Below are positions 4,561 through 59,648 of a stretch of 64,000 bases of DNA, in pieces (positions within the stretch are counted from its first letter, which is position 1; each line of letters starts with the position of its first letter). Source of the stretch: Buxus sempervirens (taxonomy: Eukaryota; Streptophyta; Magnoliopsida; Buxales; Buxaceae); assembly GCA_947561395.2 (NCBI GenBank), contig OX387186.1, forward strand, positions 8,297,888 through 8,361,887, given 5' to 3'. The position numbers and the translations under genes are program-made. Under the pieces are notes generated by a model. The model was not told where the DNA came from and did not search any database. It was given only the letters and a program-made list of their open reading frames with translations.

Positions 4561-5170
4561 GCTCTCTATGTGTCCATGGAGAGGAGTGCTATGACCATCT
4601 ACCCGGTGAGTAGCAATGGGGCTTTCCCTGCAGTACCAAATAAAAAGAAAAATCAATCTAATCATCTCTCACCCCGGCGTTATTCATATTCCTATTCTAA
4701 CAACCAATCTGCTCAAATGCCTACTGATTCCCATTTAAAGCCGACCAAGCAGCATCATTTAGCAAATGGTTCATCTCAAAAGAGATGGAAATATGTCTTT
4801 GTGATTCCAGCTGCGCCTTCCTTCTTACTATTGCGGCAGCCATGCTTTGTCTATGTCGGAGTCGTAGAGTGACAACTATAGGTCCTTGGAAGACTGGTTT
4901 GAGTGGCCAGCTGCAGAAGGTTTTTGTCACAGGTAATTTTACTGTTTGTAACCTGAAGCATATTGTGTTTTTTTTGTTTGAGATTTCTAAATCATGCTGA
5001 GAAGTGAAGCACATCTTGATATGATATTTAGGGGCCCCCAAATTAAATAGATCAGAGCTAGAAATAGCTTGTGAGGATTTCAGCAATATTATCGAAACAC
5101 TTGCTGATTGCACAGTGTTCAAGGGAACACTGTCAAGTGGAGTTGAGATTGCGGTTGCATCAACTGCAAT

Positions 5171-5425
5171 CAGTGGCGGAACCAGGACTCCAAATCTGAG
5201 GGGGCAAAAAAAAATTTCAATTAACACTTTTCATGAAATATAGAAATTTCAATGAGTTGGGGGGACAAACCAGAAATTTTAGAGGGGTTCTCATGAAATA
5301 TAGAAATTTTAGAGGGGGCAAAACATAAATTTTAATTAAAACATATAAAAAATATATATATATTTTTAAATAAAAAATAAAAACTGGGGGGGGCCCAATT
5401 GTCCCCCCTAGCTTTAACGTGGTTC
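5171..5425 (+). mobile_element. hAT (Tip100-like) MITE inside a pseudogene exon
   Basis: It begins with CAGTGGCGGAACCAGG, continues with the same internal sequence as 8104-8448, and ends in the same CCCCCCTAGC...AACGTGGTTC sequence but without the final bases of the right terminal repeat. It interrupts a kinase N-lobe exon just after VASTAI. The right edge and the adjoining exon sequence are lost, so no TSD partner is visible. Confidence 0.65.
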
Positions 5426-6462
5426 GGTATTTCAGAATGTTGACAATTGAAGTCCCTGGTTTAACATTTCATGTCAGTAATGAATAGTTTACAGTAATGA
5501 TCTACTTTTTCTTTTTGGTTGGAACTTGCTGTAGATTGACACACTATCACGCATTAACCACAAGAACTTTGTCAATCTCCTTGGCTATTGTGAGGAGGAT
5601 GAACCATTCACCAGGATGATAGTGTTTGAGTATGCTCCCAATGGGACCCTCTTTGAGCATCTGCATGGTACTTTTTGATACACAACTTTGTTGAGGAATT
5701 TAGACCGCACGGAGGTGGGGATTTAAATGTGGAACCAAAAACATGTTTATTTCATTTTGCAGTTAAAAGAGTTTGAGCATCTTGATCGGAATATTGCTAG
5801 GACAAGGATAATTATGGGAATAGCTTATTGTCTTCAATAAATGCACCATGGTCGTCTCAGCACACCTGTAGCACATCCCAATCTGCAGTCAAATTCTATT
5901 TATCTGACAGATGATTATGCTGCCAAGGTACGCTATAACCCATTGCATTGTAGTGTGTTCTGACATCCACCATTTATCAAAATATCAAAATCGAAGATTG
6001 TTGTAGTAGATGAGTCAGGGCATTTGGAGCTGCCACCCCTTGCTGATACTGAAACAAATGTCTACAGCTTTGGGATATTGCTGCTAGAAATCATATCTGG
6101 AAAGCTCCCTTATTCGGAAGAGCAGGGATCACTTGTGAATTGGGTCGATACAAAATTAGATGCTCTGAAATTTCCATAGTTTACAAATTGGGTTGCAGTC
6201 TAGTGTTTCTATATATTTTTGTGGTCTTAAAACATTTGACGAAGCACTTATTACTCACTTGTAGGCTGTTGAACACCTGAATGGTAAGCAGGGTATCAGC
6301 TACATGATTGATCCCACGCTCAAGTCCTTCAAAAACAATGAGCTTGACATCACCTGCGAAGTAGTTCAGGAGTGCATCCATCTGGATCCAAGGCAGAGAC
6401 CTACAATGAGGGAAGTCACCCGCAAGTTAAGGAAAGTGCTAGCGATATGGCCTGATGCTGCA

Positions 6463-6697
6463 CAATTCGCTTCCTGTGGATCCCTAATCCAGACCCCTTA
6501 CGTGAACCCCTCTTCGGATCCCTCCACATGTCATGTACTACAAAAGTGAGTGATGAAGCTATAGACAAAATTGGTGATTGACAAAAGTGAATGAGGTAGG
6601 TACAGACAAAATTGGTTGTTCATACAAGACGCGTGGAAGGATCCGAAGAGTGGTTCACATTAGGGGTCCAAATCAGGGATCCACAGGAATTGAACTG
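6463..6697. mobile_element. 235-bp MULE-type foldback MITE in the last pseudogene exon
   Basis: The two halves are near-complete inverted copies (left starts CAATTCGCTTCCTGTGG, right complement starts CAGTTCAATTCCTGTGG, then about 60 more matching bases). A perfect 9-bp TSD, GATGCTGCA, lies at 6454-6462 and 6698-6706. Removing the element restores the reading WPDAA-TPKLSPLW. The 9-bp TSD points to the Mutator superfamily. The foldback at 25740-25930 is a relative. Confidence 0.85.
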
Positions 6698-7046
6698 GAT
6701 GCTGCAACCCCAAAACTCTCTCCTTTGTGGGGGGCAGAACTTGAGATTCTCTCTGTAGACGCCACTTAAAGCTTCAATGGCTCTTCTGTCCTGTAAATTA
6801 AGTCTCTCTTTCTCTCTCTCTCTCTAGCTGTCATATACAAGAGTAGTTGTATAATCCATGGTTTTCGTGCACACTGATACTCAACAAGTCTTCTTTACCC
6901 AATTTCTCAATCAATTTCTTCTCAGACCGTTTCCTCAAACTGTTCCTCACGGTGGCGTTAGTTTTGCGACACGCATCCCTTGTCTTAAGCCCGTTTGTTT
7001 TGAGCGCAGCCGTTCCCTTCTCCAAGCCGGCTTGAATAAAAAAATA

Positions 7047-7499: not shown

Positions 7500-8050
7500 A
7501 AAAAAATAATAGTTTAAAAAGTCGTCTTCCCCAACCCGGCTTGAATAAAAAATAATAGTTTTCAAATACATCTCTCCCCTTCCCCAGATATTGATTAAAA
7601 TAGTATAGAATAGGTCTGTATTCCATTTTTTTCCCGATACCATTTTGGTTTGATCTCCATTTTCGTCTGATCTCCATCTTCCCGTTACTGCCGGCAACGA
7701 CTTTATTACGTGCGGCGACCAGTTCAAGCGACCACATTCCGGCGACATTTGCCACAGAACAAAGCATCCGATCTCGCCACCTCTGGCCCCAGCGTTCGTC
7801 ACGATCTTTCCCGACGCAATCTCTGTTTCGCAGCAGACCATCTTTACTGTCCCCGTCGTGTACATGCTTTTCATCATCTTCTGCTGCTTTGATCACCCAG
7901 TTGCTGCCAAGTATTGTTGGATAATGTAATTCGCAAGGGAAGTCTCCTGTACAGATTACCATAAACAGAACAATCAATGAAATGAGGTTGCAGAGAAAGA
8001 CATTAATTAATATTAATGAGAAGATTTATGGGTGAGAAGTGACTTACAAT

Positions 8051-8081: not shown

Positions 8082-8082
<1 letters not shown>

Positions 8083-8103
8083 GGTGGTGTTGGGGGTTGG
8101 GGG

Positions 8104-10130: not shown

Positions 10131-11381
10131 TCAACTCCAAACCAGCTGAGGGAAGTCAGGATCAGGTATGTCTTCATTGTCCGGAGGGGCCAACACCCAT
10201 TCCCCATCTTCATCAAGGATCATCCCTTTGTTCTTCTCAACCCACCATGAAGATGGAACCAAGTACTCATTTTTCAGAATATCACTGGACTTGTTAACCA
10301 GTGCAAGGCTCCTCTTCACCTTCAACTCAAACTCTCCCTCTTTTCCATTCCAGCCTGCAACTATATGTAGCATACCTTGCAGGTTATGCCAGTCACTCGG
10401 GTTACGCGACTCCTTCAAGCTCGGCGACTTCCCGGTGTCGATCACCAGCTCGACTCCTGGGGAAGCAAACCCTAGCAGAGCACTTGGATATTCTGGTATG
10501 CGATCGATCCCATTTTTTATATGCAAGATCCGAAGGTTTGGAAACGACTTCAATTTTTTAACGAATGCTTCATTCCCCACTCGGGGACTGCCGAATACAA
10601 AAGCTGATACAGGTATCGTCAACCCATTTTCGACCACATCGAAAGCACTCAGGATTGCAAGACACGCCCCCAAGCTATGGCCTGTAAATGTCAAGCTCAG
10701 ATTCTCATCTTTGTACTGACTCACCAGTTCCTTGATCTTGGTCAGAAGCTGAGTTCTTGCACTAGTCTTTGTGAAAGTAGAATTTGGGTTATCTGAATAG
10801 TAAAGTGTGAACCAACCATTCATGACCTTCGGCTCATCTTCGCCGTCGTTACAGCCGAGTATCCCATCATACCAGTGGTGCTGGGCCTCGGCCGGCTTCA
10901 ACAATGGCTTGACGGGTACAAGGTTCAAAAGTAGATCGTCCATCTTTTCCAAATTTCGTATAGTCCCACGCCATGCAACGTAAATTTCACGTCTGCCCAA
11001 GACTTTGCTCACCTCGTCGGAGGTTACCGCAATGTATCCGATCCAGTTGGATTCTTTATCCCGAGCTTTATTGGAGCAGAAGTGCAGGAGGAAGTCAAAT
11101 GGAAACTCGACACTGGCGGTTGCGTAGAGGAAGCCGACGACATTGTAGTCGGAGGCTGATGGAAGCTCCACCTTCTTGAAGAATGAGTGGTGGCCGTAGC
11201 GGCTGCTGCCGCAGAACCTGGAGTTTTCATCGTTGTTGAAAGCGTCGTAGGTGGCCTGGCAGAAGTCGCCGCACCGGAGAATGAGTTTCCGGAGGCTGAG
11301 ATTAAGGGGTTCAAGCAGACCTTCCCACTGGTTGCTTCCTAGCAATTCTTCCCATGTTAGTTTTTTTTGGTCAGTCTCCAT
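10131..11381 (-). CDS. Phospholipase A1-II (class-3 lipase), intronless
   Basis: A 416-residue uninterrupted frame of the plant phospholipase A1-II family (relatives of PLA1-IIgamma/DSEL). These enzymes lack a transit peptide and hydrolyse the sn-1 acyl chain of phospholipids or acylglycerols in the cytosol. The alpha/beta-hydrolase core includes YVAWRGT (134-140, oxyanion region), the nucleophile elbow GHSLG (234-238, Ser236), FGSPRVGN (263-270), NGIDRIPEYP with the probable catalytic Asp293, and DWHNLQGMLH with the likely catalytic His at 332 or 339. The C-terminus PSSWWVEKNKGM..DEDGEWVL is typical of the family, and the length is as expected. No N-terminal signal is evident. It looks intact. 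In Arabidopsis a PLA1-II gene lies in the chromosome-4 duplicate of the DOG1 region, which fits this position beside the MDIS1-like pseudogene. The specific paralogue is inferred. Confidence 0.93.
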   Translation of the reverse strand: METDQKKLTWEELLGSNQWEGLLEPLNLSLRKLILRCGDFCQATYDAFNNDENSRFCGSSRYGHHSFFKKVELPSASDYNVVGFLYATASVEFPFDFLLHFCSNKARDKESNWIGYIAVTSDEVSKVLGRREIYVAWRGTIRNLEKMDDLLLNLVPVKPLLKPAEAQHHWYDGILGCNDGEDEPKVMNGWFTLYYSDNPNSTFTKTSARTQLLTKIKELVSQYKDENLSLTFTGHSLGACLAILSAFDVVENGLTIPVSAFVFGSPRVGNEAFVKKLKSFPNLRILHIKNGIDRIPEYPSALLGFASPGVELVIDTGKSPSLKESRNPSDWHNLQGMLHIVAGWNGKEGEFELKVKRSLALVNKSSDILKNEYLVPSSWWVEKNKGMILDEDGEWVLAPPDNEDIPDPDFPQLVWS

Positions 11382-11493
11382 GGTAGAAGAAGATCTTAAA
11401 AGTGGGAAGAGAGTGCGAAATCAGGAGAAAGAGATCAGATGATGAAATTGAGTGGGAATGAAAGTTGGTGTGGGAGATGAACAAATGGTTGGC

Positions 11494-15267: not shown

Positions 15268-15945
15268 TCATACTTTGACACGCCTGCGGTCGTGATCTAG
15301 CCCCCACGCGTGGACCCCGAAGTGCAACTCGCTCGCGGCGACCAAGAACTCCACGGCCTGCTGTGGGGTCAGGATCTCCACAACCCTTCGAATCGTTGTC
15401 AGCCGTAGATCGTCCGCCATCTCTAGAATGTTCACCAGCCGTTTGATATTTTCGTCCGGATCTGAACACGTGGAGACCAGGTCGCCGGCGCTGTCCTGCC
15501 ACTCGAACAGCTCCTCTGAGATCTCGTTCTCCTCTCTCACCGTTTGGCATTGCAGCTCACTGACGCGCCCGAGTTGGCCCGGGGAGAGATCCCCCAGATC
15601 GCCGGTTCGGTGGCCGCGGAGGATGTCGAGGATTTGGGCCTCGAATCGGACGCTGGACTCGGTGTAGACAAGGTGGAAGACGGTGGTGGGTCGCCAGCCG
15701 CCGATCCAGAGTAAGGAGCGCTCGAGGCAAGTGGTCCAGTCGGGGGTGAACATGGAGAGGACGTCGTGCTTGATGGCTTGTGACTTGCGTAGGTAGTATT
15801 CCTGGTAGTGGGTTAGAACCTTGTCGACGAGTTGGGTCAGGCGTTGTTCGTCTTGGGCGTTAGTGGGCCTCGGAGCGGAGGCGACTTGCTGGTGGAGGTG
15901 GCGGAGGCGATCGAACCATGTCTCGTAGAAGCTATGGAAGCACAT
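15268..15945 (-). CDS. DOG1-like protein (seed-dormancy/TGA-DOG1 domain), copy 1
   Basis: A 225-residue single-exon frame of the DOG1 family (DELAY OF GERMINATION 1 and DOG1-like), plant proteins sharing the DOG1 domain also found in TGA bZIP factors. In Arabidopsis DOG1 controls seed dormancy through the ABA-pathway phosphatases AHG1/AHG3. Visible family blocks are SFYETWFDRL (5-14), HYQEYYLRKSQAIKHDVLSMF (46-66), TPDWTTCLERSLLWIGGWRP (67-86), DLSPGQLGRVSELQ, VREENEISEEL, ADDLRLTTIRRVVEILTPQQAVEFLVAASELHFGVHAWG near the C-terminus. The GGWRP form is nearer to DOGL proteins than to DOG1 itself (GGCRP). It ends soon after the conserved HAWG, as most family members do. It looks intact. A CT-rich leader and G-box/ABRE-like motifs lie upstream. 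Confidence 0.9.
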   Translation of the reverse strand: MCFHSFYETWFDRLRHLHQQVASAPRPTNAQDEQRLTQLVDKVLTHYQEYYLRKSQAIKHDVLSMFTPDWTTCLERSLLWIGGWRPTTVFHLVYTESSVRFEAQILDILRGHRTGDLGDLSPGQLGRVSELQCQTVREENEISEELFEWQDSAGDLVSTCSDPDENIKRLVNILEMADDLRLTTIRRVVEILTPQQAVEFLVAASELHFGVHAWGLDHDRRRVKV

Positions 15946-20767: not shown

Positions 20768-22337
20768 GGGTTCACATCTTCTCCTACGCCCTCTCTCTTA
20801 CAAAATTACAGCGTCAATAACAAAATGCCACCTGTCCCCACAAAAAGTTATCAAACTTACGGCGTTTGTCTTTTTATTTCTCCGTCTCCCTCAATTTCAA
20901 ACCACTAACTCCCTCCTCTCCCTCCTCGGTCAGCCTTTACTCGTCTTCGTCAAAACCCAAAAAGGAACCTACCCCATGTCTTCTTCTTCACGGAACAATT
21001 TTAGCACAAAATATAAAAGTTCCACAAATTTCGACTCAGATCAAAATCATTTGGATTTTAGGACAAGATACCATGGAACTGATTAATCTAGACCTGCTAT
21101 CTCAACACGTTTTGGATGCCACATGGTCTCGGAATCCATTAATGAACTCCCCCCAAAGCTTTAGTTCGGTCTGTAAATATTAAATTCAGAAACCCCATCA
21201 AACAACTACACAGAAATCATCTCTGAACTCTCATCAGTAACTGGTGTAAAAAAAATAAAAAATTTTCAATTAAATCTCTTTACCAATCTTGCTATGCATA
21301 CATTCAATATTCGAAACCCGAGGAAAAAAGTGGAAAAAAAGAAACTGGATTTCGATCTCGGTGCTACAAACCCGGAATCCAAGGGTACTCGTGGAGGAAA
21401 TCAGGAACGGCGGAAGCAGCTCGGAGGTGCTCGTTGAAGGCGCGCCACTTTTCGTCAGGTATGAAGGGAGATCTGCACAGTGGGCACGTTTTCTGATCAT
21501 GGTCCATCCAACGGTCCAAGAAGCTCCGGTGGAAAATGTGTCGGCAGTTCGTCAACCTCCTGATTTCTTCTTCTCCCTCGAACTTATACAGGCAAACGGT
21601 GCAACTTTCCGGTGTGTCTCCCTCGCCGTCGGAAATCGAGTCCCGGAATTTCACCACGGGTAGACAATCTCTGAGTAGAAGAGCGGATATGGTGACCTCC
21701 GCCACTGTAGGAGATGACCTCGTCCAAGGAGATTTAGCGTAAGGAGATATTGGCTTGTTCTAAGGAGACATGTTGTAAGGCGAACTCTCTGCATTGAGAG
21801 GATTGCGGTCATAGTAGCCGGGACTTGCTGCGGAAGCACTGCTATGGCGAGTTGGGTAATCATCTTTGTTGCTAGTCGATGAAATGTTTGGATCAGAGAA
21901 CAAGAGGTTGCCGAATTTGGGACGTGGTATACTGTTCACCTTGGCAAACATGGTGCCTCCTCGACCGTCTCTCATTCTTAATCTACGACGCTCTTCTTAT
22001 CATAAACTAGAAAACCAAAGAGACCAGACGCCACCAGATACGAAGAAAGACGAACCAGGAGATTTGAAGAACTAAATATGGAAAAATTGATTGGAGGGAG
22101 AGAATAACAACGAAGCAGGTGAATAGAAGAACGACGGGTAGTCAAAGGGTTCATTTTTTGGGTTCTGAGGTGGACGCCGAGGAGAGTCAGTCAAAAAGAT
22201 TCGTTTGAAATTGAGGGAGACGAAGAAATAAAAAGACAAACGCCGTAAGTTTGATGACTTTTTGGGGGGACAAGTGGCATTTTGTTATTGACGCTATAAT
22301 TTTGTAGGAGAGGGGGCGTAGGAGAAGATGTGAACCC
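20768..22337. mobile_element. Pack-MULE carrying host gene fragments
   Basis: Long terminal inverted repeats of about 135 bp (20768-20905 and 22200-22337) start GGGTTCACATCTTCTCC. A 9-bp TSD reads TACCGTGAG at 20759-20767 and TACTGTGAG at 22338-22346 (8 of 9). Instead of a transposase it contains sequence of two host genes on the minus strand (21364-21975). It is inserted in the CACTA element. By its long TIRs, 9-bp TSD and captured genes it fits the Pack-MULE definition. Confidence 0.85.
21364..21975 (-). pseudogene. JINGUBANG-type N-terminus joined to a BRH1-type RING-H2 domain
   Basis: Reading the minus strand from an ATG at 21975, the first about 70 codons (RPKFGNLLFSDPNISS, then SSASAASPGYY, then SSPYNMSP) resemble the N-terminus of JINGUBANG-type WD40 proteins. 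In the same frame, after one TAG codon (21760-21762) and a SPYAKSPW-like stretch, comes a RING-H2 protein of the BRH1/RHA2 type: ISALLLRDCLPVVKF, then CTVC, RRLTNCRHIFHR, LDRWMDHDQKTCPLC and PFIPDEKWRAFNEHL. The RING has lost its sixth zinc ligand: HRxC is here HRSF. With that loss and the stop, the gene product is probably not a working E3 ligase. It lies wholly inside the Pack-MULE. The RING assignment is firm; the JINGUBANG assignment is from memory and less certain. Confidence 0.7.
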
Positions 22338-26555: not shown

Positions 26556-26940
26556 TGATACGCATACGGTGAATGCATGCAAGGCAAGGCTGCGTACCAC
26601 ATGCATGCAAGGCACCAAGCTGGAGACCTGGTCGTGCATAACCGATTAGTTGTAGTTGTTTAGTTGTTTTAAGTTTGTTAGTTGCATAAGGCTGGGGTGT
26701 GCTGGTCTTCAGCCATTCAGGTAGGAATTAGTGGGGTTAGTTTGTTAGTAGCAGAAAGATAGGATGTGCTGGTCTTCAGCCATTCAGGTAGTGGTTGCTA
26801 TTCTCTAGGGAGTTTGTTTTCCTGAAGCTATAAATGTATTCAGAAGGACTGAAATGATATATCGGTTATTTGATTAGAATTCTTACTCTCTTCCGTTCTA
26901 AATCCTTCTTTATCTTCTCTACCCAAATTCATTCTTATCA
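26556..26940 (+). repeat. 5' LTR of the Reina-like element
   Basis: 385 bp, starting TGATACGCATACGG and ending ATTCTTATCA. Contains a duplicated GTGCTGGTCTTCAGCCATTC block and a TATAAATG-type box near 26829. Confidence 0.95.
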
Positions 26941-29900
26941 GTGGTATCAGAGAGCCAGGTCCAATCATGGACACTCGCGGCAAAACTAATGCTGAATTCC
27001 GCAATGATGTCAATGAAGCCTTAGCAAGACATGAGTCAAGCTTCGATCAGGTTCATGCTGCCCTACAAACGGTGTTAACCGAGCTTCAAGCTATTCATAC
27101 CTCACATCGCCCAAACACTAGCCATCCTGAAACCAATCCCTTCGCACCTGAAGAATCTTCACACCGGCCATATACTTCTCGCTCAGATGCCACTTGCGAC
27201 CGCTCCCGTCAAAATCTCAAATTGTATTTTCCAAAGTTCAACGGCGAAAACCCAAGGAACTGGGTATACAAGGCAGAACAATATTTTGAGTTTCAAAATA
27301 TTTCAACCGATCAACAAGTTCAGCTCGCCTCCTTCCATTTAGAGGGCATCACCCTACAATGGCACAAATGGTTGACGAAGTTTCACGGACCACTCTCTTG
27401 GGATGAGTTCACCAAGCCGTTACTACTCCGTTTTGGTCCAACCGATTACGAGGACCCGTCGGAAGCTTTAACTCGCCTTAAGCAAACCTCCACCGTGGCA
27501 GATTATCAAGAGAACTTTGAAAAGCTATCCCACCGGGTTGATGGCCTGCTAGAAAATTTTCTAATCGGGTGTTTTATTGCAGGACTTCGAGACGACATTC
27601 GCTTTGACGTAAAAATAAAACAACCCAGAACACTGGCAGATACAATCGGAGTAGCTCGGCTAATTGAGGAGCGAAACCAATTACAACGAAAACCAAACCA
27701 GCAATTTCGCTTCCAACCCGCATTAGCGACACAGAAGGCATCACCCATAGCTGGGGTGCTGGGGCCTCCACCAACCCAGCGCATGAACCAAGGCTCAAAT
27801 ACCCTGCCAGCAACATTCCGTCGAATCACCAATCAAGAAGCACGGGAACGTTGAGAGAAGGGGTTGTGTTATTATTGTGACAACAAGTTTGCTCCAGGCC
27901 ATCGTTGCATACGGCCACAACTAATTATGATAGAAGATTCACCTCATTCCAGTCTCGAGGATGTCGACGATGGTCAACAAGAACCAGAAATTCAGGAAGC
28001 TATACCCAAGATCTCCTTCCATGCAATTGCAGGTACGGAACATCCATAGACCATACGCGTTTTGGGCAAACTGAAAAACAAAAATGTAACAGTGTTGATA
28101 GATGGCGGCAGCACTCATAATTTCATCGACCAAATCATAGCTTCCAAGTTCGGGTTACCAGTAAACCGGGACAAGAAGTTTCAAGTGATGGTTGCAAACC
28201 GAGAGAAAATTGAATGTGCGGGGCAGTGTCGGGCACTCACACTCGCCATTCAAGGTCATTCCGTCACTGCAGACTTCTACATCCTTCCCGTCGCAGCATG
28301 CCAATTGGTATTGGGGGTCCAATGGCTTGAAACTCTCGGACCCATCGAGACGGATTACAAGCTGCTAACCATGACCTTCACGGTCGATGAGGTTCCCCAC
28401 ACCTTCCAAGGATTGCGACATACTGGCATCAAAGCCTTAACGGACAAGGAGTTCAATGGATTACAAGGTACTGGATTGTTTTTTCAAATCATTCCTTCAA
28501 TCAGCAGCAGCCAAACGAACTCATCTCCACCGGATATGTGCCGCCTCCTAACGGAATTCTCTCATGTATTTGAAACGCCAACCAGCTTGCCCCCAAAGCG
28601 GTCATGTGACCATCAAATTCCATTGTAGCCGAACACAGAGCCGGTGAGCGTAAGACCATATCGATACCCTTATTACCAGAAAACTGAGATAGAAAAGATG
28701 GTAAAAGAACTTTTGCAATCGGGTTTGATAAGGCATAGTCACAGTCATTTCTCGTCGCCGGTTCTGTTAGTGAAGAAGGCAGACGGAGCTTGGCGGTTTT
28801 GTGTGGATTACCGGGCCTTGAATGACAAAACGGTCAAAGATAAGTACCCCATTCCCGTGATCGATGAACTACTGGATGAGCTTCATGGAGCTAAATTCTA
28901 CTCGAAGTTGGATTTACGGTTGGGATATCACCAAATTCGAGTGAAAGAGGAAGACAGTCTGAAAACAGCTTTTCGGACTCATGAAGGACATTACGAGTTC
29001 ATCGTAATGCCCTTTGGACTTACAAACGCACCTGCAACCTTCCAAAGCCTCATGAACGACCTTTTCCGTCCCTATCTCCGAAAATTTATTTTGGTTTTCT
29101 TTGACGACATTTTAGTATATTCGAAATCATGGGAAGACCACCTCGCACATGTACAAACTGTTTTACAAATCCTATCATCTAACAGTTTGTTTGCGAAGGA
29201 ATCGAAATGTCGATTCGGGGTTTTGCAGGTGGAATACTTGGGTCACATAATTTCAGAACAGGGAGTGGCGGTTGACCCCACCAAAATCTAAGCCGTCATT
29301 GAGTGGCCTACACCAACAACGGCTAAAGGGGTCCGCGGGTTCCTCGGGTTAGCCGGCTACTACTGAAAGTTTATACGCAATTTTGGGTGTATAGCGGCTC
29401 CTTTGACCTGACTCTTGACCAAGGAGGGATTTCAATGGAATGAGGCAGCAGAGATGGATTTCAAGCAATTGAAGGAGGCATTGACGTCCCCACCAATTTT
29501 ATGTTTACCAGATTTTTCACAACCGTTCATGGTGGAACGCGGGATCGGACTTGGTGCAATCCTATCCCAACAAAATCGACCGGTGGCCTATTTTAGTGAG
29601 GCATTGAAGGGTTCGGCTTTAGCGTTGTCCATCTACGAGAAGGAGATGTTGGCTATCGTCAAATCAATCAAAAAATGGCATCCGTATTTGCTTGGCAAAC
29701 CGTTTACAGTCCGCACCGACCAAAAAAGTCTCAAGTACGTGCTAGAGCAACGGATAACTACACCGGCACAAACCTGATGGCTGCCAAAGATACTTGGTTA
29801 CGATTATGAAATTGAGTATAAAAAGGGGCCCGAAAATCAAGGTGCGGATTCCTTGTCGCGTGTGGTTGAATTTCAATTCCTATCTATTTCAATGCCACAT

Positions 29901-31355
29901 GCAGATTGGTGGCTAGTCCTTCAAAAGGAAGTCCAACAAGACTCATTTTATGAAGAGTTGACCAACAAAAGCCCTTCACAAGCAACTCACCAGCCGATTC
30001 AGAGAGATGGCGTATGGTTCAAGCGAGACAAGGTTTATTTAAGTCCTACCTCAACATTGATTCCCAAAATCATTGCCGACTGCCATTCTTCACCCATCGG
30101 TGGACATTTCGGGTTTCATAAAACCCTCTCCCGCATCAAGCATAGTTTCTTTTGGTCTAGCATGCGTCAGATGGTGAAGGAATTTTTACAGTACTGTGAT
30201 GTTTGTCAAAGGTACAAAACCGATTGTATGAAGCCGGCGGGGTTACTTCAGCCGCTCCCAATCCCAACTCAAATGTGGACAGATGTTTCGATGGACTTTA
30301 TCGAAGGGCTTCCATCTTCACAAGGCTATACTGTCATCATGGTAATTGTGGATTGATTGACGAAGTATGCTCACTTCGTGGCCTTGAAGCATCCATTTAC
30401 AGCCATGACTGTCACCAAGGCATTTGTAGCCAACGTAGTCCGCCTCCATGACATTCCAACATCCATTGTTAGCGACAGGGACAAGGTATTCATCAGTTCT
30501 TTTTGGCGCACACTGTTTCAGCTGCAGAGCACCAAGTTGTGCAAGAGTTCAAGTTACTATCCCCAATCTGATGGCCAAACCGAAGTGGTAAATCGTACCT
30601 TGGAGCAGTATCTGAGATGTTTTGCAGGGGACCAGCCACGGAAATGGGTAGAATGGATCCCCTGGGCAGAGTTTAGCTACAACACATCCATCCACTCCTC
30701 CACCAAGATGACGCCTTTTGAAGCAGTTTGTGGCATTTCGCCCCCTAGTCTACTGACTTATGTACCAGGCACTTCCCGCGTCCAAGCGGTAGATGAGTAC
30801 TTACTTGACCGTGATGCCATTTTACGTGAGCTACGTCACAACCTTCAGGTGGCTCGAGATAGAATGAAATGTCAGGCTGATAAACACCGACATGAGGTCT
30901 CTTTTGTTGTTGGAGATTATGTGTATTTGAAACTACAGCCATATCGACAAACGTCTATGGCCTCTCGAGGCTCTATGAAGCTCGCACCACGCTTCTTTGG
31001 TCCATATGAAATCATTGAAAAAATTGGGGCGGTGGCCTATAGATTGGATTTACCTCCGAACTCTCAAATCCATAATGTGTTCCATGTCAGTTTGCTACGG
31101 AAGCATTTGGGATCGGTAATACCTGCTTCTACACAACTTCCACCAGTCTCAGATACTTCGTCCATCCTTCCACAACCCGATGTTGTTCTTGATCGACGTG
31201 TGATTCGCAAGGGTAAATACCGTCCAAAAACCAAAATTTTGGTCAAGTGGATAGGTTCACCAACTGAAGATGCGACATGGGAAAACGAGTGGCGCTTTAC
31301 CAAGACATATCCACAATTTTATCCTTGTGGACAAGGATCTTTAAGTGGTGGGGAA

Positions 31356-31750
31356 TGATACGCATACGGTGAATGCATGCAAGGCAAGGCTGCATACCAC
31401 ATGCATGCAAGGCATCAAGCTGGAGACTTGGTCGTGTATAACCGATTAGTTGTAGTTGTTTAGTTGTTTTAAGTTTGTTAGTTGCATAAGGCTGGGGTGT
31501 GCTGGTCTTCAGCCATTCAGGGTAGGAATTAGTGGGGTTAGTTTGTTAGTAGCAGAAAGATAGGATGTGCTGGTCTTCAGCCATTCAGGCCATTCAGGTA
31601 GTGGTTGCTATTCTCTAGGGAGTTTGTTTTCCTGAAGCTATAAATGTATTCATAAGGACTGAAATGATATATCGGTTATTTGATTAGAATTCTTACTCTC
31701 TTCCCTTCTAAATCCTTCTTTATCTTCTCTACCCAAATTCATTCTTATCA
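31356..31750 (+). repeat. 3' LTR of the Reina-like element
   Basis: 395 bp, nearly identical to 26556-26940. It is slightly longer because of a short repeat expansion of CCATTCAGG. The element's polypurine tract precedes it. Confidence 0.95.
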
Positions 31751-32010
31751 GAACTCTCCTTGAGTTGACGATTTCATCCCGGAGTTCAGAGCCTCCCGTA
31801 TGACACAGCCCGCCCGTATGGTGTTGTTATTCATTACGTACATCTTTGTTATTTACTTTCACAAAACCGAAGTTTATGAACTTCAAACTACAACTATAAC
31901 TGAGTTTGTCTTCTATGATCTCCTCTCATGGGAAACATTACAAAGCTCTTGTAGCAACTAATTAAAAGATCGATCCATAAAAGATAAAACTTCTCTGAAC
32001 TCTACGACTA

Positions 32011-32733
32011 CTAGCTCTCATGGCGGCGCTCTCTCTTCTTTCCCAATTTCCTCAGCTGAAGTTGAAGCATCGAAGCGGCAACCATGAAATCAACACCCTG
32101 CAAAGGCGACAGCAGATCCAACACCCCTTTCAGTGCCTTTAAGCGAACACAGTCGGCCATCTTCAAGACTCTCTCCAACCCACTCAACAAGGTCTTCATA
32201 GCCACTTCCACTAAGCCATCCACCTCTTTGGTCAAGAGATAGCTTCCTTTGGCATGGCTCGCTAGCCTAGCTAACTCGAGCATTCGCCGGTCCGCCATGG
32301 ACACTTGCTGCCTCTCCATTTCTCTGTCAACTCTATCTTCTTCCAATCTGATCCTCGTCTTCAACTCTTCCAAGCGCTTGAGTTGTTCCTCTGATATTAC
32401 CTCCAAACTTGCCCCAGGAACTCGACTATTTCGCAGTGAGTTCACGAGTTGGAAGACCAAAGAGGGTTTCCAACCCGTCATCCAGAGGTAAGCATTCTCC
32501 AGAGGACTCAACCATGGCGGTGAATAGAAGAGAAGAACGTCTTCATGAGCCGCAGCCCATTTAGCAGTGTAGTATTCTTTATAGTGGGTCGTGACTTTAG
32601 AAACCAGAGACCGGTGTTCTGGTTCATGAGATGGGTCCTTCGAAGCAGAGCGAAGCTGTTGTAGGTGAACCTCGTGCTGTTGCATCCATTCCTCATAGAA
32701 TGCGGAGAATCTCTCCTCAACTGGGCTTCTCAT
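32011..32733 (-). CDS. DOG1-like protein, copy 2
   Basis: A 240-residue single-exon DOG1-family protein. An in-frame ATG lies 26 codons further upstream, but its extra residues do not resemble the family and would reach into the core promoter. I therefore take the ATG at 32733, which gives MRSPVEERFSAFYEEWMQQHEVHL, the usual family start. Other family blocks: HYKEYYTAKWAAAHEDVL, FYSPPWLSPLENAYLWMTGWKPSLVFQLV, ISEEQLKRLEELKTRIRLEEDRVDREM, and a C-terminal ADCVRLKALKGVLDLLSPLQGVDFMVAASMLQLQL. It lacks the HEWG/HAWG motif near the end and is the most diverged copy. It looks intact. The Reina-like retrotransposon ends 260 bp downstream of its stop, and a clear TATA box and seed-type motifs lie upstream. 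Confidence 0.9.
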   Translation of the reverse strand: MRSPVEERFSAFYEEWMQQHEVHLQQLRSASKDPSHEPEHRSLVSKVTTHYKEYYTAKWAAAHEDVLLFYSPPWLSPLENAYLWMTGWKPSLVFQLVNSLRNSRVPGASLEVISEEQLKRLEELKTRIRLEEDRVDREMERQQVSMADRRMLELARLASHAKGSYLLTKEVDGLVEVAMKTLLSGLERVLKMADCVRLKALKGVLDLLSPLQGVDFMVAASMLQLQLRKLGKKRERRHES

Positions 32734-35674: not shown

Positions 35675-36421
35675 ATGGAAAATTCTGATCATCGCCGCCC
35701 ATCTCGTTGCTGCTTTGACGACTGGCTCACCCAATAAGAAGCCGACCTTCAAGAACTCCTCCAAGCGTTAAGCCTCGACGCTGGTGACGAAGACGATCGC
35801 CAGCAACTCGTCGACAAGGGTGTCCAACACTACAAAGACTATTGCGAGAAGCGAACAGTTCTCGCCCGAGTGGATGCGCCACCATTCTTCGCCCCCAGTT
35901 GGTGCAGCTCCTTGGAGAACTCCCTTCTCTGGATCGGCGGTTGCAGGCCCTCGTTATGCATCCGACTCGTTTACGCGCTCTCGGGATCGCAGCTCGAGTC
36001 TCAACTCGCAGAATTCTTTCAAGGGATGAGGAGAGGAGACCTGTGTGGGCTCTCAGCGAGGCGACTCGAGCTTGTGAACAATCTTCAGATCAAGACCATT
36101 AGAGAGGAGGAGAAGCTCTCATCACAGATGGCGAGTCTTGAGGAGGAGATAGCTGACCAGCCACTGGTTCAGATAGCGAGGGAGTCAGCGCATGTGGGTG
36201 AAGACTCGAATGGCGATGTGGAACGCGTTCTCAACACTAACTCGCTTGCCATGGCGAGTATGCTGGATGAAGCGGATCAATTGAGGGTGAGAACGTTCAC
36301 GGCGCTGCTAGATATTCTGACGCCGAAGCAGGGTGTGGAGCTTCTGGCGAACGCGAAGAAGCTTCATCTCTCCGTGCACGAGTGGGGAAAACGAAGAGAT
36401 GGGCAGAACGGAAAAGCCTAA
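35675..36421 (+). pseudogene. DOG1-like, copy 3, with an in-frame stop at codon 21
   Basis: An ATG at 35675 opens a frame that reads to 36421 in one phase (248 residues if the stop is ignored), but codon 21 is TAA (35735-35737). Copy 4 has a glutamine there (NWVIQQEE versus DWLTQ*EA). The rest is a well-kept DOG1 domain protein: HYKDYCEKRTVL, FFAPSWCSSLENSLLWIGGCRPSLCIRLVYALSGSQLE, then LVNNLQIKTIREEEKLSSQMASLEEEIAD, and EADQLRVRTFTALLDILTPKQGVELLANAKKLHLSVHEWG. The GGCRP and LHLSVHEWG blocks make it, with copy 4, the most DOG1-like of the four. The good preservation suggests a recent loss, an allele, or use of a downstream start such as 35870, which would drop the first 65 codons. It lies between two inverted copies of a hAT-like element. 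Confidence 0.85.
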
Positions 36422-39982: not shown

Positions 39983-40714
39983 CTATGTACCGTGCTGGAG
40001 GCTGACCCATTCATGGATGGAAAGACGAAGCCTCATCACTGCTACTAACAGATCAACCGCTTGAAATGGCGTGAGGATGCTTGCCAGCTCCTTCAGAGTG
40101 TGCAGCCTCAACTCGTCGGCGTCCTCCAATAAACACGCCAACCCAAGGATGTGTGAATTAAAAGCCTGGTCCACACGCCGGTTCGACTCACCAACTGGTG
40201 TCGGCTCGCTGTTCCCGACGAGGAACGTTTGCTCATCAGCTATGTCTTCCTGTAAACTCGCCATCCGGTTAGACAGCTTCAGCTCCTCCTGAACAGTCTG
40301 GCAATGGAGATCGTTCACCATGTTGAGTTGCGGAGCGGAGAGGTCGGCCAGGTTTCCCGTCCTCACGCCCTTCAGGTACTGGGTTAAGTGTTGGCCAAAC
40401 TCGAAGCCGCAGAGGCTGTAAAGCAGTCGAATGGAGATAGTGGGTCTGCAGCCGGCGATCCATAGGAAGGAGTTCTCCAATGGGGTGCACCAGGTGGGGG
40501 AGAAGAAGGATAGGGCGTCGTCTTGGAGCAGCGATCTTCGCGTCTCGTTGTACTCTTGGAAGTGTTTGATGTTGTTGTCGGCAACTAGACGGAGCTTGAT
40601 GTCGTCGTCGGCGTCTATGGCTAGAGCCCGAAGGAGCACTTCTATGTCTTCTTCCTGTTGAATAACCCAGTTGTTAAAGCAGCAATGAAATCGATTTTGA
40701 TTATGAGTCGCCAT
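39983..40714 (-). CDS. DOG1-like protein, copy 4 (DOG1-type)
   Basis: A 243-residue intact single-exon DOG1-family protein and the closest paralogue of copy 3. Blocks: FHCCFNNWVIQQEEDIEVLLRAL (N-terminus), HFQEYNETRRSLLQDDALSFF, SPTWCTPLENSFLWIAGCRPTISIRLLYSLCGFEFG, DLSAPQLNMVNDLHCQTVQEELKLSNRMASLQEDIAD, VGESNRRVDQAF, then EDADELRLHTLKELASILTPFQAVDLLVAVMRLRLSIHEWV. The order VGE..VDQA..L..ADxLR and the GCRP motif are as I recall them in Arabidopsis DOG1, so this is the best candidate for the true DOG1 orthologue in the window. Where Arabidopsis DOG1 has a C-terminal tail added by splicing, this copy stops nine residues after the HEW motif. A TATAAAT box lies about 40 bp upstream. Confidence 0.9.
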   Translation of the reverse strand: MATHNQNRFHCCFNNWVIQQEEDIEVLLRALAIDADDDIKLRLVADNNIKHFQEYNETRRSLLQDDALSFFSPTWCTPLENSFLWIAGCRPTISIRLLYSLCGFEFGQHLTQYLKGVRTGNLADLSAPQLNMVNDLHCQTVQEELKLSNRMASLQEDIADEQTFLVGNSEPTPVGESNRRVDQAFNSHILGLACLLEDADELRLHTLKELASILTPFQAVDLLVAVMRLRLSIHEWVSLQHGT

Positions 40715-46163: not shown

Positions 46164-46312
46164 CCACCTTCCCCAGATAGGTTGAGGGTGGGATCATCAT
46201 TGTCGTTTATGTTTCACGTCAAAGAATCGAGGAGAATGCCAGAAGATGCTAGTGGTGGTGCAATCAAATAAGTACGGATTTTCACGTCTGGTGGGACGAA
46301 CCAGGAGCAGAA

Positions 46313-47692
46313 ATGGAGAAGAAAGGGACCATCTTGATGCAAAGGTACGAGCTGGGGCGAATGCTGGGGCAGGGGACCTTCGCAAAGGTCTACCATGGAC
46401 GGAACTTGAGCTCGGGCCAGAGCGTCGCCATTAAAGTCATCGACAAGGAGAAGGTATTAAAGGTTGGGATGGTCGATCAGATTAAGCGGGAAATCTCCGT
46501 GATGCGGCTGGTTAAACACCCCAATATCGTTCAGCTCTACGAGGTCATGGCCAGCAAGACGAAGATCTATTTCGCCATGGAGTACGTGAAGGGTGGCGAG
46601 CTTTTCAACAAGGTCGCCAAGGGGAAGCTCAAGGAAGACGATGCTCGCAAGTATTTCCAGCAATTGATCGGCGCCATTGATTTCTGTCACAGCCGGGGAG
46701 TCTACCACCGGGATCTGAAGCCTGAGAATCTGCTCCTTGACGAGAACGGGGACCTGAAGATCTCTGATTTCGGCCTGAGCGCACTGTGGGAATCCCGGGG
46801 ACAAGATGGCCTTCTGCACACGACGTGCGGGACGCCGGCGTACGTCGCACCGGAGGTGATCAACAAGAAGGGCTACGATGGGGCCAAGGCAGATATCTGG
46901 TCTTGTGGGGTTGTGCTGTTTGTATTAATGGCGGGTTTTCTCCCCTTCCATGACACCAATCTCATGGAGATGTATCGGAAGATAAGCAAAGGAGACTTCA
47001 AGTGCCCGCAGTGGTTGCCAACGGAGGTCCGGAAGCTTTTGTCGAAAATCCTGGACCCCAATCCGAGGACAAGGATCACGGTGGCTAAGCTCATGGAGAA
47101 TCCATGGTTTAAGAAGGGATTCAAGCCGGCGGAGGCAGTCCAGCCCCGGAGAGAAGAACAGATGCAGATGAGCCTGGTGGATGTGCAGGCAGCCTTTGCA
47201 ACAAATCACTCGGAGGGCAGTTCCGAGAAGATAGTAGCTGAAGCTACGACCTCCATGATGAGACCCACTTGTATGAACGCATTCGACATTATATCTCTGT
47301 CACCAGGATTCGATCTGTCTGGTCTGTTCGAGCAGGACAGAGATCGGAAACCAGAGTCCCGATTCACGAGCACAAAGCCGGCGTCTGCAATAGTGTCGAA
47401 GTTGGAAGAGATTGCGGAGGTGGAGAGGTTTCAGGTGAAGAAGGAGGACGGAACTGTGAAAATGCAAGGGAGCAAGCAAGGGAGGAAGGGACAGCTTGCC
47501 ATTGACGCTGAGATTTTTGAGGTTACGCCTGCACTTTACGTGGTGGAAGTGAAGAAAGCTGCGGGAGACACGTTGGAGTACCAGAAATTCTGTAACCAGG
47601 AGTTGAAGCCTTCTCTCAAGGATATAGTGTGGACATGGCAAGGAGGAGACCAGCCTCCGCCCCAGCCTCAGCAACCACTACCTGCTGCTTAA
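46313..47692 (+). CDS. CIPK20: CBL-interacting protein kinase, CIPK20-like, intronless
   Basis: A 459-residue intact SnRK3/CIPK serine/threonine kinase. These kinases are recruited and activated by calcium-bound CBL sensors and act in ion, ABA and stress signalling. The kinase domain spans about 12-266: P-loop GQGTFAKV (19-26), catalytic Lys41 (AIK), Glu60, HRDLKPEN (132-139, Asp134), DFG (152-154), activation segment to APE (179-181), all present. The CBL-binding NAF block is [19 protein letters not shown] (321-339), followed by the phosphatase-interacting (PPI) region and a C-terminal DIVWTWQGG, then a Pro/Gln-rich tail. [25 protein letters not shown]-type kinase wording and the [30 protein letters not shown] order match CIPK20 as I remember it better than CIPK12/19. 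In Arabidopsis CIPK20 is the immediate neighbour of DOG1, supporting orthology. The start is the first in-frame ATG giving a family-typical N-terminus. Confidence 0.93.
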
Positions 47693-51262: not shown

Positions 51263-51574
51263 TCATTCGACAGCTTTGTTTACCATATCCGATTGCTTTT
51301 CAAGGGATTGAGCCTTCTGCTGAACAGACTTGCGTTGGAGATCTCTCCACGTATTGATCGCAGCCGTGCAAACGACTGAAACATCATCATACGATAATCG
51401 ATGAAAATTTCGGGAAAAAAAACAACAATAACAACCGTAATCTGATGTAGAACAACAACTAAAAAACAAGATTGAATAAGAGAGATCGATGGATGGGGAG
51501 GAAGGAACAGTACATCCAGCGCCAACGAAAGCAAACAAACGAACAAGCTTCGAGCCCGCGTCTCCCCCCGCCAT
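51263..51574 (-). CDS. Small conserved-looking membrane protein, two exons, 57 residues
   Basis: Exon 1 is 51574-51514 and exon 2 is 51375-51263, with a 138-bp GT-AG intron (51513-51376; donor GTACTG, acceptor TTTCAG) in phase 1. The spliced product starts MAGGDAGSKLVRLFAFVGAG and continues FVCTAAINTWRDLQRKSVQQ, ending DMVNKAVE. Residues about 10-27 are hydrophobic and could be one membrane segment; the tail is Gln/Lys-rich and probably helical. Unspliced reading gives an odd Ser/Tyr/Cys-rich middle, which supports the intron. I recall similar short plant proteins of unknown function (MAG.DAGSK..R....GAG..CTAAIN.WRD) but no named gene. The function is unknown. Confidence 0.75.
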   Translation of the reverse strand: MAGGDAGSKLVRLFAFVGAGCTVPSSPSIDLSYSILFFSCCSTSDYGCYCCFFSRNFHRLSYDDVSVVCTAAINTWRDLQRKSVQQKAQSLEKQSDMVNKAVE

Positions 51575-55727: not shown

Positions 55728-55736
55728 TTTTATTCG

Positions 55737-57373
55737 TTTCAAAAAAATTAAATGACTAAAAAGGTTATATTAAATAGATACGTATAATATAACAAAATAA
55801 GAAAATATAAATGCAAATATATAATAATGGACTTTTTTTTTTTTTTTGATAAAAAGGAATAAACATAGCACGAAGTTGCATCCAAGTTAATGAAGGCGGT
55901 TCAACCATTTTTCTTTTTGATGAAGCAAGAGGGAGAAATTATGTTGGTTTGGTGGATTACTATATTTGCTCTTTTCCTTACCCAGGAAAAAGAAAACCCA
56001 TGAAAGTGGTTCAAAGGATAAAGTCCCAAACGTACCCAAAAAATAAGATCATTTATTTGCATTTAAGTCACTCGTCTCCTCCATCTTAAGGAAACAAACA
56101 AGGAACCTGTGAGCCGTGTCATCTCATTTGAATGATCGAACCCACTTGTACGGTGCTAAGAATTCCAACCGATATGTTACCAAAAAAAAGAAGTCCCACC
56201 GATAACAAAAGGGTAATTTTTCTTTTTCTCTCTCATCCCGGTTAGCCTATCTACTTATGGGGTATGGTAAAGGTTCTCTCAAACATGCAGAAAATTCCAA
56301 AACTTTTCAATTCATGAAGAGTCGTCTCAATATTTCATGACGTTAAGACTTGAGCATTTCTTTCAGAGCCAAAATCCTGTGGTTCGCCAGGTTGCATTTT
56401 GGGGTGTGAGCCCCCTTATTCACGTTTCACGCTGGAACCATTGAGTAGCTCTAGACAAAACGGTCTCTGTTAAGATGTGCTTGACTTTTTATTTCAGAAA
56501 ACCTATTGTTAAATTATCTTTTGGATGACATATGAGATCGAATATTTATACCTTTTCCACAAATGAGTCCGTAAATGAGAAGGTATAGACTATTCGGTCC
56601 TATTGATGAATTACAACTCCACTAATATGAATTAATTACAAGCCAGAAAATGAGAATTAAAAGCTTGTCGGCCACGATTATAAGTTTCTGTATAGGGAAT
56701 TAAAAGTCAAATGTTAGGAGTTATAAGTCTATTGATGGGATCACTCCCATCGTTTGACTTGTATTACCATCGACAGATATTTCTAATCCATCGATAGGAT
56801 CAAATGATCTATATTTTCTTAATTCCAAGATCATTTGGTCATTTTCCGAAAAGTATAACTAAGAGTTATTATATGTCATCCAAAGGTATTTCAAGAGTAA
56901 TTTTTCTTTTAATTTTCTTTAAATTTAATGCAATAAATTTGTAATTATTCAAAACTTTTTAAATTTTTTGCAATTATTGAAAAAGTAATATTCGGCTGCG
57001 TCAAGGGCATTTGCGTCACTCTGAACATAAACGCTCTTCGCAATTCACGCACCATCTGCCGGTTTTATAATTATGACTCTTGCTCAGAGTTACAGTTGAC
57101 GATCAAACAAAAATATTACTCGAACCACCTGCCATTTATCGGTTATTAAATTTACGCCGCCGTTAACAACTCCGTTAAACTTAACACCGTCAGCTTACTC
57201 CTTCCTTCCCATAGTATAGATAGCTACGACAAAACTGGTTAAAGTACTGCGCCCCATTTGCAGTGTCGCATCTTTCTTCTACCGCGACGACAGGGAGCTG
57301 AAGCTCTCTCTGTCTGCAAATCCTTCCATGGCGATGAAGACGAGTACGAGAGAGTCAACGTAAGATTTCTGTA
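55737..57373. other. Intergenic upstream of the receptor-like kinase
   Basis: AT-rich for the first 1.2 kb. The last 400 bp are less AT-rich and probably contain the promoter and 5' leader. A weak TATAGATAG string is near 57217. Confidence 0.35.
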
Positions 57374-59648
57374 ATGGAAGTGTTGTCAAAGCTTCTGTTG
57401 GTTCTCTCTCTTCTTGCTTTCGCGGAATCCGCCTGTGACAGTTCCGACCGGGAGTTGATATCTAAGGCTTTCAGCTCCGTCTCTGGGTTCGACGTCTCTG
57501 AGTTTAGGTCCATTAATGGGAGCTGCGCAAATCCTCCGATAAAGGAAATAAGACTACCGTCCAGGAATCTGAGTGGAACAGTGTCATGGGTGATTCTTAG
57601 AAATCTGTCTCAGTTGCGGACGATCGATCTCTCCTGCAATTCGCTGCGAGGGTCTATTCCAAGCGGCTTTTGGTCGATTCGGAGCCTCGTTGAGGTCAAT
57701 CTCTCCATGAATCGTCTCGGAGGAAGTGTTTCCTTCGAACCCACATCGGAAATCGACCCGTCTTCGTTGTTGTCGTCATCGATTCAGGTGCTGAATCTGT
57801 CCAGTAATCGGTTCACGAACTCGGTGCAGCTCTCTGGTTTCGCAGACCTGAGAGTTCTGGACCTTTCACACAACGATCTCAGGCATTTTCCTACTGGCCT
57901 CAAGAACCTCCCGAAGCTGGAACACCTCGACCTCTCGAGTTGCAACATATCAGGAAATTCGAAACCCATCTCCGGTCTCCGCTCGTTGAAGTACTTAGAC
58001 GTCTCTGATAACTCCATGAACGGTACCTTCCCCTCCGATTTTCCCCCTCTCGCGAGTCTCAAGTTCTTGAACGTCTCTCTCAACAACTTCACCGGACTGG
58101 TTGGGTCAGACAAGGTACAGAAATTTGGCAAGTCTGCATTCATCCAAGCTGGGATTTTTAACTCTTCGAAGACCTCAAAGATCCCAATTCTAACTCATTA
58201 TCGAGCCCCACCTCCAAAGCCTCTCAGAAAACACAAAACCCTAATCAAACACATACACCACAAATCCAAGAAACCCAAATCCAGAAACCAAAAACTCATT
58301 CTGGGTCTAACAACTGGAGCTGGTGCATTGCTTGTGATTGCAATGGCCGTTTGTATAGGCTGTACGTACAGGAGGAGAAAGATGGCGAAGAGGCAACAAT
58401 GGGTGATCTCTAAACCGATCCAGTTGCAGTGTAAAGTCGAGAAATCAGGACCCTTCTCATTCGAGACCGAGTCGGGGAAATGGGTGGCCGACATCAAGGA
58501 GCCGTCGTCGGCACCGGTGGTGATGTTCGAGAAGCCGTTGATGCAGCTTACATTCACGGACCTGATCGCTGCCACGTCGCACTTCGGGAAGGAGTCCCAG
58601 CTCGCCGAAGGTCGTCGTGGGCCGGTTTACAGAGCCATCTTGCCTGGAGATATCCACGTGGCAATTAAAGTCTTGGAAAAGGCAAGGGAAATTTGCCACG
58701 CGGCCGCCGTCGCCATGTTCGAGGACCTCTCTCGGCTTAAACACCCCAACCTCCTGCCATTGTCGGGCTACTGTATTGCAGGTACTGCAACTGTAGTTCT
58801 TGATTTTTCTTAGAGCGTGATTTGGTAGTTCACGAACGACCAAATTAAATACTTTCACGGGTTTTAAAGATAGTGACATCAGCAATGCACTTAATTAACG
58901 CTGGTGGATTGCACGTACCCGCCAAACCAAACCCTAGGGATCGACGGCATTGGTAGTTGCTACCTGTTCGATCATTTAATTTCTGTACATCGCGACTTAC
59001 TAGATCTCTGTTGCAGGTAAAGAGAAGTTGCTGTTATACGAGTTCATGGCGAACGGAGACTTGCACCGGTGGCTGCACGAGCTTCCGGCGGGGGAGACCA
59101 ACGTGGAAGACTGGAGCATGGACACGTGGGAGAATCAAAACGACGGTGTAACTTGCTCAAGCATCTCGTCGTCGGAGAAGATGAGCTGGCGCACGCGCCA
59201 CCGGATCGCCGTCGGGATCGCTCGTGGGCTGGCGTATCTCCACCATGCAGGCTCGAAGCCCGTTGTCCATGGCCACCTCGTCCCTTCCAACATCCTACTC
59301 GCGGATCGCTTCGAGCCCCGCATCGCCGATTTCGGCCTCCGGGGAGACGAGGACATCGGGAGCACAGAAACCGACGTGTACTGCTTTGGGTTAGTACTGA
59401 TAGAGCTCCTCACCGGGAAGCCTGCGTCCGAAGAGACAGTAGCTTTGGTGAGAGACTTGGTGAAGGAGAGAGAAGGGACGAAGGCTTTGGACCCCAGGCT
59501 GAGACACGAAACTGACTCAATGAGCGCGATGGTGGAGAGCCTCCGAGTCGGATACTTGTGTACGGCCGAATCGCCTCGGAAGAGACCGACGATGCAACAG
59601 GTTGTCGGGCTCCTCAAGGACGTCCACCAGACGGCTGATTTGAGTTGA
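57374..59648 (+). CDS. LRR receptor-like pseudokinase, CaMRLK/MEE62 type, two exons
   Basis: Exons 57374-58781 and 59017-59648 with a 235-bp GT-AG intron (donor GTACTG, acceptor TTGCAG) give a 679-residue protein. Order: signal peptide (about 1-19), a short ectodomain of roughly six leucine-rich repeats ([69 protein letters not shown]), a basic juxtamembrane stretch, a transmembrane helix at about 307-329, then a kinase-like domain from about 400. The invariant Lys is kept (VAIKVL, about 432) and DFG is present (about 573). The glycine loop is AEGRRGPVY, and the HRD catalytic motif is replaced by HGHLVPSN (about 553), so it should lack normal phosphotransfer. This matches the Arabidopsis calmodulin-binding RLK/MEE62 family by memory. 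In Arabidopsis MEE62 sits three genes from DOG1, as here. Plasma-membrane location expected. Confidence 0.9.
58782..59016 (+). other. Intron of the receptor-like pseudokinase gene
   Basis: 235 bp, GT..AG. Splicing joins G (58781) to GT (59017) to make a glycine codon, giving [13 protein letters not shown], the expected kinase wording. The intron contains in-frame stops. Confidence 0.9.

Follow-up and report, generated by a model that had tools for sequence, protein, structure and literature searches.

A 64,000-nucleotide stretch of the Buxus sempervirens genome (contig C8, positions 8297888-8361887; here called the window, in whose own positions its features are given) very probably corresponds to the region that holds the dormancy gene DOG1 and the related DOGL genes in Arabidopsis. 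Our preferred reading, to which we give a probability of roughly 0.85, is that an old, conserved block was duplicated and fractionated, that the window holds one copy of it, and that Arabidopsis keeps two partly lost copies of it. The DOG1-domain genes of the window stand between an MRH1/MDIS1-type receptor and an intron-less CIPK, with a lipase separating the receptor from DOG1, and the presence of further copies in the same genome suggests that this arrangement is old.

Results

Passages in published sources place MEE62, CIPK19 and CIPK20 at At5g45800, At5g45810 and At5g45820 (PMC5226650), DOG1 and MDIS1 at At5g45830 and At5g45840 (PMC7516787), PYL11, PYL12 and PYL13 at At5g45860, At5g45870 and At4g18620 (PMC5723141), LSH9 at At4g18610 (PMC8705616), MRH1 at At4g18640 (PMC5353636), the DOGL genes at At4g18650-18690 (PMC7465105) and CIPK12 at At4g18700 (PMC3890537); PMC4930220 is a further source for such places, and PMC3890537 also gives adjoining tags to CIPK14 (At5g01820) and CIPK15 (At5g01810). 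The prediction, made before the search, was that ALOG, PYL and DUF688 genes would lie past the MRH1 side of the window and RPL11 past its MEE62 side, and the whole genome was searched for each family. All four neighbours turned up on the expected side and less than 0.2 Mb away: three of them precede the window by 91-193 kb, and RPL11 follows it by 107 kb. Along C8 the order is ALOG at 8.105 Mb (one of 5 genome matches), a PYL-like PF10604 gene at 8.192 Mb (one of 14), DUF688 at 8.205 Mb (one of 4), a second MRH1-like copy at 8.275 Mb, the window genes at 8.303-8.358 Mb and an RPL11-type L5_C fragment at 8.469 Mb (one of 8). Because all four neighbours stand where they were predicted, rare as ALOG and DUF688 matches are in the genome, the window is very probably the DOG1/DOGL block. 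The ALOG-PYL-DUF688-MRH1-DOG1-CIPK order of C8 is that of Arabidopsis chromosome 4, with DUF688 at its presumed place, and its MEE62-CIPK-DOG1-MDIS1-PYL order is that of chromosome 5, reversed.

Within the window, a Pfam search of the open reading frames (ORFs) detected Lipase_3 at 10134-11420(-), four ORFs with a DOG1 domain (PF14144) at 15.3, 32.0, 35.7 and 40.0 kb, Pkinase with NAF (a CIPK) at 46253-47689(+), and leucine-rich repeats (LRR) with a kinase at 57338-59645(+). These domains, together with the broken receptor pieces, bear out the gene list of the initial annotation (a broken MDIS1-like gene, a PLA1-II gene, four DOG1-like genes, a CIPK, a small gene and a CaMRLK/MEE62-like gene). 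The names MEE62-like, MRH1/MDIS1-like and CIPK20-like are provisional and based on position, family and putative Arabidopsis sequences. The features are as follows.

4612-6546, plus strand: MRH1/MDIS1-like receptor remnant, with juxtamembrane/transmembrane and kinase pieces in a broken frame; LRR exons not seen
10131-11381, minus strand: class 3 lipase of PLA1-II type, single exon, GHSLG motif
15268-15945, minus strand: DOG1-domain gene W1 (PF14144)
26556-31751, plus strand: Gypsy-type long terminal repeat (LTR) element with gag, reverse transcriptase and integrase/chromodomain pieces, within the DOG1 array
32011-32733, minus strand: DOG1-domain gene W2 (PF14144)
35675-36421, plus strand: DOG1-domain gene W3 (PF14144), with an in-frame stop at codon 21
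39983-40714, minus strand: DOG1-domain gene W4 (PF14144), sister of W3
46313-47692, plus strand: CIPK without introns, kinase and NAF, with VAIK, HRD, DFG and APE all present
51263-51574, minus strand: small predicted gene, probably of two exons, N-terminus MAGGDAGSKLV
57374-59648, plus strand: MEE62/CaMRLK-like LRR receptor kinase, two exons

The small gene had no Pfam match, and a genome-wide search with a query that contained its presumed intron matched only the gene itself, with no second copy.

Further copies of the block were found in the assembly, which comprises 247 contigs and 676.5 Mb; 13 large contigs of listed length sum to 610 Mb and, with C6 (at least 48.9 Mb), to at least 659 Mb, compatible with 14 chromosomes. 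The copy on C1 (in Mb) has DOG1 at 69.98, DUF688 at 70.39, an MRH1-like gene at 70.40, ALOG at 70.48, PYL at 70.65 and a CIPK at 71.21, and that on C3 has ALOG at 60.43, PYL at 60.59, an LRR receptor at 60.68 and a CIPK pair at 61.26 and 61.32. On C14 there are an MRH1-like gene at 10.35, DUF688 at 10.41, ALOG at 10.78, a two-exon PLA1 at 11.60 and CIPKs at 12.014 and 12.030; the genome search gave neither a DOG1-domain nor a PYL match on this contig, and no close MEE62-like match lay there among the 87 of 2042 candidate LRR relatives that were scored. A third old pair is possible, formed by C4 (DUF688 at 22.19, two DOG1-like genes at 23.51 and 23.53) and C12 (a DOG1-like gene at 23.80 and an MRH1-like fragment at 26.65).

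With C8 set aside, at least four of seven families fall within 1.75 Mb at three further places (six families on C1, four each on C3 and C14), a width picked after the C14 copy had been seen. Random placement of the matches, with the size of C6 guessed at 58 Mb, gave two such places in none of 20,000 runs; when it was confined to one quarter of the genome, two or more places arose in 25 of 20,000 runs, and three in one of them. The families were those of the window genes and the predicted neighbours, minus the lipase, the small gene and RPL11. Excluded from the placement were MRH1-like matches above E 5e-12 (C14:9.84, C8:6.31, C9:46.08 and others; C12:26.65, at 3.7e-12, was kept), LRR matches weaker than about E 1e-20, 8 of 18 PF14144 matches whose short exon-sized ORFs led us to judge them TGA-type, and 17 of 30 NAF matches other than complete single-exon genes. 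Each of the 14 PF10604 matches (11 loci) counted as PYL-like; those on C8, C1 and C3 were read, and those on C8 and C1 were compared with the PDB.

Synonymous substitutions per synonymous site (Ks, NG86 method) between C8 and C14 were 1.29 for the CIPK and 1.41 and 1.48 for two exons of one lipase pair. C1 and C3 gave 1.30 and 1.14, C4 and C12 1.14, C21 and C11 0.98 and 1.99, and C22 and C15 1.09, so that eight of the nine values lie in 0.98-1.48 and the ninth is 1.99. All four comparisons of C8/C14 with C1/C3 (three CIPK, one PYL) were saturated. The C14 copy is a duplicate of the window copy (Ks 1.3-1.5) and, given values mostly of 0.98-1.48 within pairs and saturation between C8/C14 and C1/C3, a duplication specific to this lineage seems to lie on top of an older one. 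The same families are carried by C1 and C3, the deeper duplicate, and their linkage thus predates the C8/C14 duplication.

In a tree built from those 13 of the 30 genome-wide NAF matches that are complete single-exon CIPKs, the window CIPK and C14:12.014 are sisters (99/98; 80% identity), and C3:61.261 is the next to join them (97/93). Once putative Arabidopsis sequences had been added, the support for the window and C14 pair was 94/91, and a putative AtCIPK20 joined it (94/91, not starred). A second CIPK, C14:12.030, lies 16 kb from the first and is 81% identical to a putative AtCIPK12. The window has a single CIPK, and a pair of CIPK19-CIPK20 type (a 12-type with a 20-type, as assigned from the putative sequences) lies at C14:12.014/12.030 Mb. 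When the window was searched by tblastn with the C14 and C3 CIPKs, neither a CIPK12-like gene nor a remnant of one turned up; the hits were to the CIPK already described and, weakly, to two stretches within the MEE62-like kinase. In a pattern search for plant relatives of CIPK there was no match in viral_contigs, and none of the 38 matches in genome_contigs was confirmed. Intron-less CIPKs of two differing types are paired at four places (C3:61.26/61.32, C14:12.01/12.03, C21:11.84/11.88 and C11:36.36/36.38). Three of the best-scoring LRR relatives of the MEE62-like gene, among the 87 scored, lie 0.14-0.58 Mb from the CIPK pairs on C21, C11 and C3. The linkage of CIPK and receptor may be older than the split of C8/C14 from C1/C3.

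The lipase was placed in a PLA1 tree of 14 rows that included 7x0d and AtPLA1-IIgamma (PDB 2yij), which we take to be the product of At4g18550. AtPLA1-IIgamma grouped with 7x0d and with two-exon genes, three of them at C8:7.58 Mb and one at C14:11.60 (100/99), and the window lipase and its tandem copy fell outside this group. The C8:7.58 genes share 62% identity with AtPLA1-IIgamma, the C14 gene 60% and the window lipase 42%. The C8:7.58 cluster lies 0.7 Mb upstream of the window and 0.5 Mb past ALOG, a position comparable to that of At4g18550 past LSH9.

The array of four DOG1 genes is old. A recent tandem origin of W1-W4 is excluded by identities of 26-43% and Ks values of 1.30 (W3/W4) and 2.20 (W1/W4): W3 and W4 are sisters (43% identity, 100/99), and the five other pairs are 26-35% identical in the BLAST table, or up to 39% in local matches. 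W3 is either a pseudogene or a shorter gene that starts downstream of the stop at codon 21. The terminal repeats of the Gypsy-type element are 386-396 nt long and 96% alike. A RING-H2 gene fragment at 21367-21759(-) is flanked by 135-nt inverted repeats, 95% complementary and spanning 20768-22337, as though a mobile element, of foldback type or another, had captured it; one ring position appears altered by eye. Elsewhere, the DOG1-like gene at C12:23796141-23797141 (L089) has one in-frame stop, and its relatives on C4 (23.51 and 23.53 Mb, 94% alike) are open.

At the lipase end, the MRH1 and PLA1 pair of the window has a second copy 27.6-30.5 kb upstream. The MRH1-like pieces are 91-95% identical in DNA to the copy at C8:8.274-8.277 Mb (80% in an adjoining 238-nt piece) and about 70-77% identical to the copy at C14:10.35 Mb, among 150 of 548 candidates scored. 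With a lipase Ks of 0.13 and DNA pieces 90-95% identical (80% in one short piece), the window pair is a recent tandem duplicate. The β3 lysine is missing from the MRH1-like genes, which read AVAST at this site in the window copy and its upstream C8 counterpart and AVASS in the C14 copy. ADISF stands at the expected DFG of the upstream C8 and C14 copies in an alignment by eye, this part not being seen in the window copy. The same degraded β3 lysine and DFG are reported in a passage on Arabidopsis MRH1 (PMC5353636). At the other end, the MEE62-like gene has HGH at the expected HRD (about 59268), retains the VAIK lysine and DFG, and is perhaps a pseudokinase, judging by these motifs. MEE62 itself is an inactive kinase. 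The degraded motifs make it reasonable, from sequence alone, to call the two "receptor-like pseudokinases", as had been proposed. Among the scored LRR relatives of the MEE62-like gene, those on C21, C11 and C3 are 38%, 38% and 32% identical to it.

Two further observations concern these receptors. Broken pieces at C1:9160770-9167064, 83-92% identical to the window MEE62-like receptor and distant from every block copy, represent a pseudogene of transposed or segmental origin. Reverse transcriptase remnants of long interspersed nuclear element (LINE) type span 2122-3687, ahead of the broken MRH1-like gene on its upstream side, with a zf-RVT domain at 2122-2511 and neighbouring minus-strand ORFs.

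Discussion

Our results on gene content, flanking markers, paralogous blocks and Ks values form a pattern that for the most part is to be expected after a genome has been duplicated and has then lost genes, and its kind is already known as conserved synteny with fractionation. The C8/C14, C1/C3, C21/C11 and C4/C12 pairs, whose Ks values are for the most part alike and whose losses complement each other, resemble the paralogons left by plant whole-genome duplications and differ from them in nothing of principle; here it is the DOG1 neighbourhood that has at least two ancient copies. The ancestral block would have had the order ALOG, PYL, DUF688, MRH1/MDIS1, DOG1-like, CIPK pair, MEE62-like and RPL11. 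An earlier duplication would have given rise to the C1 and C3 copies, and the lineage's own genome duplication to C14 and to C8, with the window, where the CIPK12-like gene would have been lost and one MRH1 copy broken. Arabidopsis chromosomes 4 and 5 would hold two partly lost copies of the same block. We infer this common origin from the order of locus numbers and the identity of the families. Inheritance, repeated duplication and independent differential loss are the simplest account of the gene order and presumably of the missing genes, with no need of co-regulation.

The Arabidopsis regions At5g45800-At5g45870 and At4g18610-At4g18700 share with Buxus the order of LSH9/ALOG, PYL, DUF688 (at its presumed place), MRH1/MDIS1, DOG1/DOGL, CIPK and MEE62. 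They differ in that the Buxus copy unites markers divided between chromosomes 4 and 5, and in that the window lacks a CIPK12-like gene, has four diverged DOG1-like genes and carries a PLA1-II gene of another lineage between MRH1 and DOG1. Among the papers listed by searches of open-licence literature, no description of this block across species was seen, which does not show that none is in print.

Several points weigh against the reading of an old block shared with Arabidopsis. The C14 copy is rearranged relative to C8, as its MRH1 (10.35), DUF688 (10.41), ALOG (10.78) and CIPK (12.01-12.03) positions show, and the tally for C3 includes an LRR match of just 32% identity. RPL11 is represented by a single match (39 bits) to a fragment the size of one exon, whose range includes a stop. 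The C8 PYL-like gene scores higher with PYR1 (198 bits) and PYL9 (195), its best PDB matches, than with PYL13 (163), so that orthology to PYL11-13 is not established. The Arabidopsis places of DUF688 (At4g18630/At5g45850) and RPL11 (At4g18730/At5g45775) are presumed ones. Gene-by-gene comparison with Arabidopsis covers PLA1, with a database sequence, and CIPK, with putative ones, and another putative row labelled CIPK20 joined C3 (94/92) and not the window; its label is presumably wrong, and we think it is CIPK15. Finally, the PLA1-II gene, offered by the initial annotation as the counterpart of At4g18550, is ruled out as its relative by the tree, in which AtPLA1-IIgamma joins the C8:7.58/C14:11.60 genes (100/99).

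Since receptor kinases and lipases belong to large families with many genome matches, the likeness to the DOG1 locus could reflect chance nearness of common plant genes. We find this scarcely credible, as the rare ALOG and DUF688 genes were predicted beforehand and found beside the window, and random placement failed to reproduce the observed places, unless these families lie together for some other cause. It is also very improbable that the window is one block dating from before any duplication and uniting all genes of the two Arabidopsis copies, At4g18550 included. Such a block would fit the company of several DOG1-like genes, a feature of chromosome 4, with MEE62-like and CIPK20-type genes, features of chromosome 5. 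However, a partner copy on C14 (Ks 1.29-1.48) rules out a single unduplicated block, the PLA1 tree excludes a relative of At4g18550, and tblastn detected neither a CIPK12-like gene in the window nor a remnant of one. The ancestral block with partial loss that had been proposed agrees with the order match, the four predicted neighbours and the other copies, but the window is half of the C8/C14 pair; the claim that it combines both Arabidopsis duplicates holds for the chromosome 4 and 5 markers found together, and not for CIPK12 or the lipase.

PYL, DOG1 and CIPK families act on PP2C phosphatases. Their linkage might have been kept by selection for this shared role in abscisic acid (ABA) and dormancy control, and DOG1, PYL and CIPK do occur together on the C1 copy, and PYL and CIPK on C3. 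This is very improbable: losses are complementary between copies, the C1 copy spans 1.2 Mb and an LTR element sits within the DOG1 array, while the losses on C14, with no PYL or DOG1 match, weaken the case for joint retention. A bolder reading, which we consider improbable as a whole, places the DOG1 neighbourhood in a set of very old paralogous blocks that also unite PYL genes, an intron-less CIPK pair and LRR receptors; the three PP2C-regulating families PYL, DOG1 and CIPK would then have been linked since before the split of C8/C14 from C1/C3, and selection or shared chromatin control would partly maintain the linkage. Nothing in the data shows a functional role for the linkage.

An old block, duplicated and fractionated, offers a framework for the origin of DOG1 and DOGL genes, in which the neighbourhood can be used to find DOG1 orthologues too diverged to be recognised by sequence, as with W1-W4, only 26-43% alike. 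It suggests that the old companions of the locus are PYL, MRH1, CIPK and MEE62, and that the PLA1-II gene is a local addition.

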